Assembly: GCA_003134765.1 (NCBI GenBank)
Contig: PLCM01000040.1
Location: 1 to 64,000, forward strand
Origin: Spartobacteria bacterium
GTDB taxonomy: Bacteria; Verrucomicrobiota; Verrucomicrobiia; Chthoniobacterales; UBA10450
DNA length: 64,000 bases
Direction of reading: 5' to 3'
Notes under the pieces: generated by a model
What the model was told of the DNA's origin: nothing
The model's input: only the letters and a program-made list of their open reading frames with translations
The model's database searches: none
Shown: positions 47,252-52,465 of the stretch, in pieces
How the letters are laid out: each line of letters opens with the position of its first letter
Numbering within the stretch: position 1 is the first letter of the stretch
Program-made: the position numbers and the translations under genes

Positions 47252-47341
47252 GTCATCCCGAGCGGAGCGAAGCGGAGTCGAGGGATTCCGGGGAACGTCG
47301 AGCGACGGTCATCGGGGTCCCTCGACTTCGCTCGGGATGAC
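47252..47341. repeat. Family C inverted-repeat element, short form
   Basis: GTCATCCCGAGCGgaGCGAAG and TTCGCTCGGGATGAC are inverted ends, with CGAGGGATTCCGG and GGTCCCTCG inside; length is about 90 bases. It lies between the divergent acyltransferase and MFS genes, so their promoters must be close to it. Confidence 0.75.
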
Positions 47342-47381
47342 GCTGCTTTCTTTCGTTGCCGGGCATGGTTCAATTGCTGCA

Positions 47382-48599
47382 ATGCCTTCCGATCAAAAAT
47401 GCGTGCCTGTTTGGACACGCGCCATCGAATTCTTCGGGCTGAAGCGCAATCTCGTCCTGCTCCTCATCGCCACGTTCGTCATCGGTGCGGGAGAAGAGCT
47501 CTGGATGCGCTTCCTTCCGAAATACCTGCAGGTTCTCGGCGCGACTGTTTTCATCATCGGCCTTTTCGATGCCCTCCGGACATTGCTCGGCGCAATCTAT
47601 GCCTATCCGGGCGGCGTTCTCGTTGATCGCTGGGGGCATCGGCGGGCTTTTCTCGCCTTCAACCTCTTTTCGATCGCCGGATACGCGCTTGTCCTTCTAG
47701 TGCCGCATTGGGGGGCAGTCATCGCAGGCATGTTTCTCTTCCTGTCCTGGACCTGCTTTTCGTTGCCCGCAACCTTCTCACTTATTGGCGCATCTCTCGG
47801 GGCTAACCGGCACGCCATGGGCGTTGGGATGCAGTCGGTCATCAAGCGGTTGCCGATCATGGTCGCGCCCATCCTGGGTGGATTTCTGATCGATCGGTTT
47901 GGCTTGATTACCGGCGTCCGGATCGGCCTGTCCGTTTCGATCATTCTTTCCGGCGCGACTCTCCTCGTCCAACTTCAATTGCGCGAAACGCCGCCGGAAG
48001 CGATTGCCGTGACCGAGCGCTGGAATTTTTGGCAAAGCCTGCGCGCCTTCCATGCGCCCCTGCGCCGCCTTCTGCTGAGCGACATTCTCGTGCGATTTTG
48101 CGAGCGAATCCCGTTCGCCTGGGTCGTGATCTACGCCATGGACAACGTGGGTGTGAATGCAAAAGAGATTGGCGTTCTGACGAGCGTTGAGGTGATCGTC
48201 GCCAGCCTTTGCATCATTCCGGTTTCACATTTTGCCGATAAGCACGTCCGCGAGCCGTTCGTTCTGGCGACGTTTGGATTCTTCACCCTCTTCCCGTTAG
48301 TGCTCTGGCTCTCCGGCAGTTTCACGATGCTCGTGGTCGCGTTCGCCATTCGGGGCCTGAAAGAATTCGGCGACACCTCGCGCAAGGCGTTGATCATCGG
48401 CTATTGCACCCCCGAGCGTCGGGGACAGATGATTGGTGCGTATTACCTCGTGCGCGATCTTCTCGTCAGCACCGGCGCGATTCTGGGCGCGTGGCTCTGG
48501 AAGCTGGGCCCGGGCGTCAACTTCATCGGCGCAGCCGCCTTCGGGCTTTGTGGCACGGTCGTTTACCTGATCGCGCTTCGCCGCCAACCGTCGTCGTAG
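47382..48599 (+). CDS. MFS transporter
   Basis: ATG 47382 (MPSDQKCVPVWTRAIEFFGL) gives 405 residues; an upstream ATG lies inside the intergenic repeat and is rejected. About 12 membrane helices are present, with the MFS loop 2-3 signature GGVLVDRWGHRRAFL (G-x3-D-R-x-G-R-R form) and a matching half-repeat region SHFADKHVREPFVLATFGFF in the second half. PERRGQMIGAYYLVRDLLVS is typical of drug/solute exporters. Substrate is unknown. Confidence 0.85.
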   Translation: MPSDQKCVPVWTRAIEFFGLKRNLVLLLIATFVIGAGEELWMRFLPKYLQVLGATVFIIGLFDALRTLLGAIYAYPGGVLVDRWGHRRAFLAFNLFSIAGYALVLLVPHWGAVIAGMFLFLSWTCFSLPATFSLIGASLGANRHAMGVGMQSVIKRLPIMVAPILGGFLIDRFGLITGVRIGLSVSIILSGATLLVQLQLRETPPEAIAVTERWNFWQSLRAFHAPLRRLLLSDILVRFCERIPFAWVVIYAMDNVGVNAKEIGVLTSVEVIVASLCIIPVSHFADKHVREPFVLATFGFFTLFPLVLWLSGSFTMLVVAFAIRGLKEFGDTSRKALIIGYCTPERRGQMIGAYYLVRDLLVSTGAILGAWLWKLGPGVNFIGAAAFGLCGTVVYLIALRRQPSS

Positions 48600-48667: not shown

Positions 48668-48757
48668 GTCATCCCGAGCGCAGTCGAGGGATCCCGTTGT
48701 GCGTCGAGTGACACGCGACGGGGTCCCTCGACTCCGCTTCGCGCCGCTCGGGATGAC
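48668..48757. repeat. Family C inverted-repeat element, short form
   Basis: GTCATCCCGAGCGCAGTCGAG opens and CTCGACTCCGC..GCTCGGGATGAC closes; GAGGGATCCCG and GGGGTCCCTC are inner inverted arms. A GC-rich palindrome (GGCGTCCGCCGCGGCGGACGCC, split about its centre) lies just upstream at about 48600-48623. Together they fill most of the gap between the MFS and bactofilin genes. Confidence 0.75.
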
Positions 48758-49348: not shown

Positions 49349-50041
49349 TTAGCCCGTTCCGAAATACCTATCCCCGGCGTCGCCAAGACCCGGCACAATG
49401 TAGGCGTGATCATTTAGCTCCCGATCGATCGCGGCGGCGATGATCGGAACGTCCGGATGCGCGCGCTGAAATTGTTCGATGCCAACGGTGCTCGCCACAA
49501 CGGAAAGAAACTGGATGCTGCGCGCGCCCCGGGCTTTCAGGATTGCAGCGGCTTCGCAGGCGCTGTTTCCCGTCGCCAGCATTGGATCGAGGAGCAGTAC
49601 TTCGGCGACGCCAATGTTTCCGGGAACGCGTTCGTAATAACTCACCGGGCGAAGCGTTTCGGCGTCGCGGTAAACACCGATGTGTCCGATGGCGGCATCG
49701 GGAGCGATGCGCTGAATCCCGTCGAGCATCCCGAGGCCGGCCCGAAGAATGGGCACGAGCACGATCGGCCGGGCGAGAATTGCGCCATCGCAGGGGCCCA
49801 ACGGGGTTTCCACCGGGATCGATCTGAGGTCCCAGGCGCGCGAAGCCTCGACGAAAAGGAAAACGGAAATCTCCTGAAGATGGCGGCGAAACAAATCCGG
49901 CGCCGTTTTTTTTGAGCGGAGAATCGACAAACCGGCTGCGACAACCGGATGATCGATGACGTGGCACCGCGCCTTGGGAGGGCGAGACGTGCTTGCCCTG
50001 AGCGACGCCGAATGGGTCGAGCCGCCGGGTTTCTTAGCCAT
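49349..50041 (-). CDS. upp: Uracil phosphoribosyltransferase
   Basis: It converts uracil and PRPP to UMP in pyrimidine salvage. The PRPP loop VLLLDPMLATGNSACEA and the uracil site PGLGDAGDRYFGTG at the C-terminus are unmistakable, as is HVIDHPVV near the start and LRAGLGMLDGIQ. The natural start would be a few residues before HVIDHP, but no start codon exists there. The only in-frame ATG (50041) lies inside a REP family B element, so about 24 residues of the 230-residue product come from repeat DNA (GGSTHSASLRASTSRPP). Confidence 0.92.
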   Translation of the reverse strand: MAKKPGGSTHSASLRASTSRPPKARCHVIDHPVVAAGLSILRSKKTAPDLFRRHLQEISVFLFVEASRAWDLRSIPVETPLGPCDGAILARPIVLVPILRAGLGMLDGIQRIAPDAAIGHIGVYRDAETLRPVSYYERVPGNIGVAEVLLLDPMLATGNSACEAAAILKARGARSIQFLSVVASTVGIEQFQRAHPDVPIIAAAIDRELNDHAYIVPGLGDAGDRYFGTG

Positions 50042-50080: not shown

Positions 50081-52465
50081 TCACGCGGCTCCCTCGCGCA
50101 TCCGCACGGGCGAGGCGGGAAGTTTATCGAGCACGATCCGGCGCTCGCCATCGTAATGTCCGAACGCCAGGACGCCGGTCGGGCATTGCTGCACGCAAGC
50201 CGAGCAGCGCACGCATTCCGGGTCCTGCATCGGCACGCCTTTGTTCGCAAAATTCATGATGTCGATCCCCTGGTGGCAGACCGAAGTACAGATGTTGCAC
50301 GAGATGCATTTCGATTTCTCCGGAAAAATCCGGAAACGTGAGAAGCGCGCATAGATGTGCATGAGCGCGGCCAGCGGACAAAAGAACCGGCACCAGACGC
50401 GGCCGGAATACTTGAAGTAAAGGCCCACCCCAATGATTCCGCCGAGGAAAACATCCACGAGCCATTTGTAATTGGTGTAGGTGACCAGCTGGCCGTTCCC
50501 GTTTTTCCCCTCGAGCAACAAATGAAAAACCGACGCGAAAACGGATTGCGGCCAGATCCAGCCCAGGACGCGGATGAGAAGAAGGAGAAACGAAATCGCG
50601 AGGATCACCTGTCCCGCCATGTTCAAACGGTTCCAGAACGGGCCGTGCGGCATTTTGTGGCGCTGTTTGTCCCCCATCGTTTCCGCGAGCGCGCCGCAGG
50701 AACAAATCCATCCACAATACGCACCCTTGCCCCAGCGCCAGATGATGGCCGGGATGAGGACGAATGTCTGAAGGAACCCGATCGCGAGCCACCACGTCAG
50801 CGGCGCGTCGGTGAAAATGTTATAAACCATGAGTGGCCAGGCGAGGATAAATCCGTAGGCCCGCCAGTAGGCGCGCGGATGTCCCCAAACCGGCCATTGG
50901 TGCGCGGCATATTGGGCGTCCGGGATGTAAGACTCGAACAGATGATCGGCAATCGTCCTGCCGAAACCCTGGTCGAACCAGCCATTGTATCCGAGCCAGG
51001 GGAGGATGATCTCCGGGAGCAGGAATAATGGAACGACCTGCACGAGCATGAGCACGATCGTCTGGAGCGTGACGTAAGGAGTCTTGCGCCGGCGAATCCG
51101 CGCGATGCCGAAACCGACGATCAGGCTGCTGTAAAGGAAGGTGTAATAAAAAGAACGACTCTTCAGGGAAACGGCCAGCGTTCCGAGCAGCGTCGAGCGG
51201 TCAGCAACCTGGGATTGAAACCATCCACCCAGCGAGCTGACGATCGCCGGCATGTTTTCCGGCCAGGGATTGAGCCAGGTCTCGGCGAAGCCGCCGGATT
51301 TCCAGGCGTAAACGAAAGTGCAGAACGCGAGGAAAAGCCCGAGAGCTATCCAGCCGCGCGAGGTCCCCTCACCCGCAATGGGGATGCCCGAGCGTCGAAA
51401 GAAATCGAGCGGTGCTTCGCGCCCCAGCATCGTGAAGACGACGTCGTTAGGCAGCGTCGTCTCGTTTCCATTTTTCAAAAATATCTGCTCCCTTTCGATC
51501 CGCGTTACCTCGGTTCCAAGCGCCAGCGTCAGCGACCCGGGCGATTTCTGTCCGCGCATACCGGAGGTCACGGCGGTGTTGACCCGTTCCGAAGTCGGTT
51601 TCTCGATTTGCACGTCCGCCGCCGCGTCGTGGACGAGCATCTCAATTTTCCCGATATTCTCCGGTTTCGCGCGCGAAAGTTCCTTCCGGCGATAACTGAG
51701 CGTGACGTGCGCGCCGCAAGTGGCGAGCGCGATCGCCGTTTCCAACGCCGAATCGCCGCCGCCCACAACGAGTGCGTTTTGCCCGGCAAATTCCTTGGGA
51801 TCGAAAAGCCGATTGTAAACCTTGTCGAGATCCTCGCCCGGCACTCCGAGCTTCCGGAAATTTCCACTCCGCCCGATGGCGACGATCGCGCGCCTTGCCG
51901 TCACCGTCTTCTTATCGGCCATGTGCAACGTCACCGAATCACGGCTTCGCGATTCGATCCGTTCCACGCGTGCCGGCGTAACTTCGATTCCCGCCGCCCG
52001 CCGCTGCGCTTCCATCTCCTCCACCAGAGCTTCCTTGATGTCGGCGGAGAATTGCAGACCACCGTCGAGTTTCATCTCCGTCGGATAGGTGTAGATCGGC
52101 TTCGCTTTCGGGAAATTGACAACGGTGGAAAAAATCTCGGTGGCTTCAAAGACCACGAAATTCAATCCCGCCTTCTTGGCTTCGATCGCCGCCGAAATCC
52201 CAGCTACACCCGCTCCAACGATGGCCAGATCCAGGATTCCCCTTTCCGCCTTCATCACTCCGCCCTCCTTCACGATGGCCCGCACGGCCTCCGCTCCGGT
52301 GTGCGACGAAAACTTCAGGAGCGGAATCCCGGTCAGATCGCCGACAATTCTCACGCCGGGCTGGGACGTGATTCCCGCGGGGCCAGAAATCGGAAGTGGC
52401 TCCACGGTCCCGGCGGGCCACTGCGTATGCAGCCATTTGGTGTAACGTTCGATGAGTCCGGCCAT
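50081..52465 (-). CDS. Flavoprotein / membrane polyferredoxin fusion
   Basis: The product has 794 residues. Residues about 78-370 form a two-dinucleotide-binding flavoprotein: LDLAIVGAGVAGISAAIEA (FAD) and QNALVVGGGDSALETAIALA (NAD(P)H), like YpdA/thioredoxin reductase but without the CxxC pair. A membrane half follows with about seven helices, then NapH/CcoG-like CGWICSCGALAE and CRFFCPLAALM, and two 4Fe-4S sites: CISCNICTSVC near 720 and CVRCSACVQQCPTG near 752. The flavoprotein's final FAD motif appears instead near residue 40 (VRIVGDLTGIPLLKFSSHTG), as if circularly permuted. It probably moves electrons from NAD(P)H through FAD and Fe-S clusters at the inner membrane. Acceptor unknown. 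Confidence 0.82.
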   Translation of the reverse strand: MAGLIERYTKWLHTQWPAGTVEPLPISGPAGITSQPGVRIVGDLTGIPLLKFSSHTGAEAVRAIVKEGGVMKAERGILDLAIVGAGVAGISAAIEAKKAGLNFVVFEATEIFSTVVNFPKAKPIYTYPTEMKLDGGLQFSADIKEALVEEMEAQRRAAGIEVTPARVERIESRSRDSVTLHMADKKTVTARRAIVAIGRSGNFRKLGVPGEDLDKVYNRLFDPKEFAGQNALVVGGGDSALETAIALATCGAHVTLSYRRKELSRAKPENIGKIEMLVHDAAADVQIEKPTSERVNTAVTSGMRGQKSPGSLTLALGTEVTRIEREQIFLKNGNETTLPNDVVFTMLGREAPLDFFRRSGIPIAGEGTSRGWIALGLFLAFCTFVYAWKSGGFAETWLNPWPENMPAIVSSLGGWFQSQVADRSTLLGTLAVSLKSRSFYYTFLYSSLIVGFGIARIRRRKTPYVTLQTIVLMLVQVVPLFLLPEIILPWLGYNGWFDQGFGRTIADHLFESYIPDAQYAAHQWPVWGHPRAYWRAYGFILAWPLMVYNIFTDAPLTWWLAIGFLQTFVLIPAIIWRWGKGAYCGWICSCGALAETMGDKQRHKMPHGPFWNRLNMAGQVILAISFLLLLIRVLGWIWPQSVFASVFHLLLEGKNGNGQLVTYTNYKWLVDVFLGGIIGVGLYFKYSGRVWCRFFCPLAALMHIYARFSRFRIFPEKSKCISCNICTSVCHQGIDIMNFANKGVPMQDPECVRCSACVQQCPTGVLAFGHYDGERRIVLDKLPASPVRMREGAA

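Follow-up and report, generated by a model that had tools for sequence, protein, structure and literature searches.

A circularly permuted YpdA/thioredoxin reductase-like flavoprotein module in a predicted membrane-bound iron-sulfur oxidoreductase

Organization of the locus and of the encoded protein

The window, by which we mean the whole analyzed stretch of 64,000 nucleotides from the Spartobacteria contig PLCM01000040.1, carries on its reverse strand (50081..52465) a gene whose open reading frame runs without interruption between these coordinates and codes for a protein of 794 amino acids; all features described below lie on this strand. Based on the translation, the Pfam matches (Pyr_redox_3 at residues 82-362, Fer4_5 with its best stretch at 567-600 and Fer4_10 at 716-762) and the full-length conservation, we interpret this protein as a permuted FAD/NAD(P) module joined in one chain to six predicted membrane helices, NapH/NosR-like cysteine motifs and two 4Fe-4S motifs. 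Downstream of it lies a gene for uracil phosphoribosyltransferase (49349-50041), and divergent alpha-amylase-family and glycogen-debranching genes face it; these neighbors give no functional clue. Elsewhere in the window, an MFS transporter gene (47337-48599) is flanked by two dispersed palindromic repeats of 90 nt each (47252-47341 and 48668-48757), which are about 80% alike and of the GTCATCCCGAGC..GTCGAGGGAT type.

The protein begins with an amphipathic helix (residues 1-25; 52391..52465) bearing the signature RYT.WLHTxWPAGTVEKLP, of which Y8, W11, L12, H13, P17 and G19 are identical in all 65 homologues aligned; both the alignment and the structural model place it ahead of the segment spanning residues 18-68 (52262..52414), which profiles, alignment and model alike identify as the relocated closing segment of the FAD domain, comprising a strand, the GD motif and a helix. 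In the GD motif itself, GDLTGIPLLKF (residues 42-52; 52310..52342), G42, D43, G46, P48, L49, L50, K51 and F52 (GD..G.PLLKF) are identical in 65 of 65 full-length homologues. A variable, gapped stretch at residues 69-77 (52235..52261) would link the former C-terminus to the former N-terminus, and is followed by the FAD and NAD(P) Rossmann core (residues 78-366; 51368..52234), which by Pfam, NCBIfam and structure searches is equivalent to residues 1 to about 270 of YpdA/TrxR-like proteins. An initial annotation had described two Rossmann motifs, the lack of a CxxC redox pair and a displaced closing motif, and all three are recovered in the translation: the Rossmann motifs are GAGVAG (residues 84-89) and GGGDSA (235-240; 51746..51763); C250 is the sole cysteine in residues 1-366; and no closing motif follows the end of the module at about LDFFRRSGIPI (residue 363), the sequence PGVRIVGDLTGIPLLKF occurring instead at residues 36-52, ahead of the first Rossmann fold. 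Downstream of the second Rossmann motif, R259, R265 and K267 are invariant in the 65-homologue alignment. We take these residues to resemble the 2'-phosphate site of TrxR, and they suggest a likely 2'-phosphate site in the present protein, pointing to NADPH as the substrate.

Evidence for a circular permutation of the flavoprotein module

The central proposal of the initial annotation, that the flavoprotein is circularly permuted, is supported by the homology of the moved segment, by the retention of the same order across many phyla and by the structural prediction, in which a strand (38-40) and a helix (50-67) come in the right order. An HMM of the moved segment matches the C-terminal closing segments of two relatives with ordinary domain order, L119 (residues 272-312, iE 3.6e-9; core ending at 265) and L123 (266-308, 7e-9; core ending at 258), and a tail HMM built from the 65 fusion proteins alone matches the same two proteins at 2e-5 and 8e-7, respectively. 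Furthermore, relative to a reversed-tail control, an un-permuted profile gained about 3-40 bits on each of 11 ordinary flavoproteins that possess a closing segment, TrxR proteins and dihydrolipoamide-dehydrogenase-like ones among them. When the N-terminal segment is restored to the end, the resulting profile aligns over almost the entire length of solved TrxR and YpdA chains, and the moved segment falls in register with the closing motif of solved TrxRs (stnvpGvyvvGdL versus STSLPGVFAAGDL). Scans of a single un-permuted sequence against NCBIfam gave almost no gain (129.7 bits with the YpdA model versus 130.4-132.1 with shuffled tails), the lipoamide dehydrogenase model scoring 41.4 versus 34 bits with shuffled tails; as GVI stands in place of GD at the closing-motif position of solved YpdA chains, such single-sequence scans are too weak and the profiles were decisive instead.

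Structural comparisons are consistent with this picture. With sequential aligners, residues 75-366 correspond to the YpdA/TrxR stretch from residue 1 to about 270, and no sensible match is found for the last 50 residues of these proteins. An AlphaFold model computed from a 65-row alignment (mean pLDDT 82) places the strand at 38-40 and the helix at 50-67 (block pLDDT 70-89) before the first Rossmann strand at 78-83; the linker at about 69-77 is short and variable, and the new chain break comes after residue 363, ahead of the position of the closing segment. Because the old termini lie near enough for such a short linker to join them, we infer that the moved segment sits in its usual place against FAD. 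The same strand and helix could alternatively be swapped between subunits, each N-terminal segment completing the FAD site of its partner in a dimer, as might be entertained from the homodimeric state of related TrxR-like enzymes (PMC10294844) and the shortness and variability of the linker; we consider this very unlikely, given that the elements already fold in the right order, and at good confidence, when the monomer is predicted alone.

As the tail profile finds ordinary C-terminal ends, and restoration of the segment raises the scores while the reversed control does not, the permutation is genuine. At the level of sequence, the module can accordingly be described as a naturally circularly permuted YpdA/TrxR-like fold, in which the strand-GD-helix element of the FAD domain is encoded first, followed by the FAD and NAD(P) Rossmann folds, with about 50 residues of the ordinary relatives missing from the end of the module; all its segments are homologous to those of the ordinary TrxR/YpdA fold, their order being rotated. 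We found no report of a permutation of a TrxR/YpdA-like fold in the open-access papers searched. Few redox folds are as common as the TrxR-like one, whose GD closing motif has been regarded as fixed at the C-terminus; a permutation that is both natural and conserved shows that this fold can be rewired and offers a clear test of which chain breaks it tolerates. In the flavin module, the new C-terminus runs directly into the membrane relay, and in the sister families (see below) a ferredoxin precedes the new N-terminus, which together suggest that the permutation allowed direct fusion to Fe-S modules.

The membrane and iron-sulfur half

Hydropathy and the model concur on membrane helices at residues 369-389 (51299..51361), 463-493 (50987..51079), 557-578 (50732..50797), 615-637 (50555..50623) and 666-687 (50405..50470), to which is added a helix at 437-460 (51086..51157) with a weak hydropathy peak that is helical in the model. 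The cysteine motifs described by the initial annotation are present at this end of the protein: CGWICSCG (residues 584-591; 50693..50716), which lies in the Fer4_5 match and combines the first CX3C motif with a further invariant cysteine, C590; CRFFCPL (692-698; 50372..50392), the second, CX3CP, motif; and two 4Fe-4S motifs within the Fer4_10 match, C720/723/726/730 (50276..50308) and C751/754/757/761 (50183..50215). The 13 cysteines of this C-terminal half are invariant in the 65 homologues, save C757 (64 of 65), and thus both C584-x3-C588 and C692-x3-C696-P are retained throughout; in the protein from the window C588 is followed by serine rather than proline. Together, hydropathy and the model give six helices, and an N-in/C-in arrangement would place the flavin module, the CX3C motifs and the 4Fe-4S domain on one side of the membrane, presumably the cytoplasmic one; the helix number being even, all 13 conserved cysteines would then lie on the flavin side. 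Over the two 4Fe-4S motifs the pLDDT is low (40-56), and in comparisons of the membrane half with solved structures the best Z-score was 4.7, with no structural relative above that value.

Phyletic distribution and the wider permuted family

A scan of GTDB species genomes recovered 395 relatives, of which the best 80 span essentially the whole protein; the titles of these 80 name Verrucomicrobia, Acidobacteria, Planctomycetes, Myxococcales, Deltaproteobacteria/Desulfobacterota, Gemmatimonadetes, Latescibacteria, Eisenbacteria, Sumerlaeia, Caldithrix, Chlorobi and Proteobacteria, these labels being taken from MAG titles that may be wrong in places. The full-length order is kept in 65 aligned genomes from at least 10 phyla, and the single chain is conserved at 56-86% identity, homologues of 58-86% identity spanning the whole length with the same domain order. 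The homologue from Pseudoalteromonas sp. Bsw20308 (WP_007378779.1), also full-length and 55% identical, is annotated only as “NAD(P)-binding domain-containing protein” and is flanked by glycosyltransferase genes. This distribution bears on the concern, raised with the initial annotation, that two separate genes had been joined in error: the chain is conserved as one, and on these sequences a fusion produced by sequencing error is excluded. Taken more broadly, the notion that an assembly or frameshift error joined two genes, or that the GD-like motif arose by chance, has only the general rarity of permutations in its favor; it is scarcely conceivable in the face of a single open frame, of a chain kept at full length by 65 genomes of 10 or more phyla and of a tail HMM that finds the true closing segment at E ~1e-9. 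As a separate matter, in a 93% identical relative (L009/L027; G006:C25:11116-13397) the gene is split over two frames close to where the FAD part ends, reflecting a frameshift in the genome or in the assembly.

A census of the core over other genomes yielded 201 distinct cores, several near-duplicate loci included: 124 are permuted with a NapH-like half, 44 have a ferredoxin ahead of the permuted core (in some, an extra membrane domain follows at the C-terminus) and 4 are permuted but partial or plain, the others being ordinary-order YpdA-like (22), ordinary-order with C-terminal Fe-S (4) or unclear in order (3). The permuted module is found with at least three kinds of fusion partner, namely NapH/NosR-like, N-terminal ferredoxin, and ferredoxin together with a further C-terminal membrane domain. 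The sister family combining a transmembrane segment, two 4Fe-4S motifs and the permuted flavoprotein occurs at L102, L116, L115, L118 and L122. Its representative on plasmid pEMTOL02 of Emticicia oligotrophica (L102:7617-8939; WP_015031197.1) has the same permuted order, with 35% identity to residues 33-363, and differs from the protein studied here in that its ferredoxin is N-terminal and the NapH module is lacking; genes of the cytochrome c3 family adjoin it. The extra C-terminal membrane domain of some sister-family members contains histidines and is possibly cytochrome-b-like. The ordinary-order proteins with C-terminal 4Fe-4S motifs (L119, L123, L142 and L214) branch near or inside the permuted set, and in L119 and L123 these motifs are preceded by two cyclic-nucleotide-binding-like (cNMP) domains.

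In a free tree of 73 rows, computed from the core only with the moved segment left out, domain order needs two changes, the four cNMP-type ordinary-order proteins falling inside the permuted set. Constraining all 54 permuted rows to group together gives a tree of higher likelihood, which the test does not reject (p-AU 0.585), such that polyphyly of these rows is not supported and a single permutation is compatible with the data, short of being proven. On balance we favor a scenario in which one ancient permutation gave rise to a superfamily of NAD(P)H dehydrogenases wired to the membrane, spanning at least 10 phyla and fused to at least three electron-transfer modules, that has been hidden under the label “NAD(P)-binding domain-containing protein”.

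Functional predictions

This anatomy would suit the reading of the initial annotation, in which an NAD(P)H dehydrogenase module is connected to an Fe-S relay in the membrane. We propose that the protein is probably a membrane-bound Fe-S flavoprotein acting, through its permuted module, as an NAD(P)H:membrane-acceptor oxidoreductase, with quinone as the likeliest acceptor. NADPH or NADH would reduce FAD by hydride transfer on the cytoplasmic side; as the module has no disulphide, FADH2 would pass its electrons singly to the C-terminal 4Fe-4S clusters, in a manner comparable to TrxR-like ferredoxin reductases with their separate partners; and the membrane helices with the two CX3C motifs could then deliver them either to quinone or, through the membrane, to an acceptor outside the cytoplasm. 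The simplest path would hence run from NAD(P)H via FAD, the 4Fe-4S clusters and the membrane CX3C site to quinone. If this function holds, it would represent a single-chain entry point of NAD(P)H electrons to the membrane, unrecognised thus far, in hundreds of little-studied genomes.

We sought a conserved operon across the loci and found none: DUF547, GT2, Msr and TlpA genes recur and none is universal. The most frequent neighbor is DUF547, found adjacent on the same strand in several phyla (L059, L087, L131-L140, L148, L235 and L239), and GT2-family glycosyltransferases are near the gene in 9 loci. Some of these associations could be read as signs that the true acceptor of the same permuted relay is extracytoplasmic, with NADPH electrons reaching a periplasmic thiol, Msr or metal site in repair or cofactor maturation, comparable to CcdA-like or CcoG-like systems: in five loci from three phyla (L015, L069, L080, L089 and L121) the adjacent gene upstream on the same strand encodes MsrA or a fused MsrAB, two loci (L063 and L082) have a TlpA-like WCAPC thioredoxin downstream, and in 16 a same-strand DUF547 gene is no more than 500 bp away. 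However, each of these neighbors is present in a minority of loci only, all conserved cysteines map to the flavin side with no invariant periplasmic cysteine, and the CcoG model matches only 2 of 52 members, in light of which we regard this destination as rather unlikely.

The relay might also run in reverse, a quinol or low-potential membrane donor reducing NADP+ via the Fe-S centers in an energy-driven or bifurcating reaction. Quinol oxidation has been proposed for NapH modules (PMC5928378), NAD(P)H production has been proposed for anammox Rieske/cytochrome b complexes to which an NAD(P) oxidoreductase is attached (PMC12954380), and the ferredoxin-type permuted relatives in L126, L127 and L129 adjoin cytochromes with 20-31 CxxCH motifs. 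Nevertheless, quinol is not a strong enough reductant unless energy is supplied, and next to the window gene there is no gene for an ion-pumping or cytochrome b partner, so that we deem NADP+ reduction decidedly unlikely and retain NAD(P)H oxidation towards a membrane acceptor as the working prediction.

Comparison with known systems

By both sequence and fold (Z ~19), the closest flavoprotein is the bacillithiol disulfide reductase YpdA/Bdr (PDB 7a76, 7a7b, 7apr), which shares the two Rossmann folds and the absence of a CxxC pair; unlike the protein from the window it is soluble, has no Fe-S centers and carries the closing FAD segment at its C-terminus. The YpdA model (TIGR04018) is also the best match in NCBIfam, with 125.7 bits, below its cut-off of 339.9, while thioredoxin reductase (TIGR01292) scores 75.6 bits against a cut-off of 343, and its defining redox-active CxxC is absent here. 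The best working analogue is provided by the TrxR-like FNRs (PDB 3ab1, 5ygq, 6gar), which have the TrxR fold without CxxC and move electrons between NAD(P)H and partners that carry Fe-S or FMN (PMC10294844); these differ from the present protein in their ordinary order, homodimeric state and placement of the partner on a separate protein.

For the membrane half, NapH, NosR and RdhC are described as having a common module of four helices and two CX3CP motifs, that of NapH being proposed to oxidise quinol, with cysteine mutants losing function (PMC5928378). Like the window protein, they possess membrane helices with two CX3C(P) motifs, which in NapH and NosR are followed by two 4Fe-4S motifs, and PceC/RdhC is also predicted to have six helices. 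The NapH model (TIGR02163) matches 52 of 52 relatives at E <= 1e-5, with the window protein scoring 48.3 bits against a cut-off of 213; the NosR match (NF046105; 28.9 bits against a cut-off of 1000) is confined to the C-terminal part. Identity with CcoG/RdxA/FixG (TIGR02745) was considered and rejected, that model matching 2 of the 52 members (best E 1.2e-6), with the window protein not among them. In place of the periplasmic FMN domain of NosR, the protein has an N-terminal cytoplasmic FAD/NAD(P) module, and FMN_bind is absent from the 25 Pfam families listed for it. Characterised NapH-type modules take electrons from quinol, the direction opposite to the one proposed here. Set against these systems, the 794-residue protein is made of known parts, and what is new in it is their topology and wiring.
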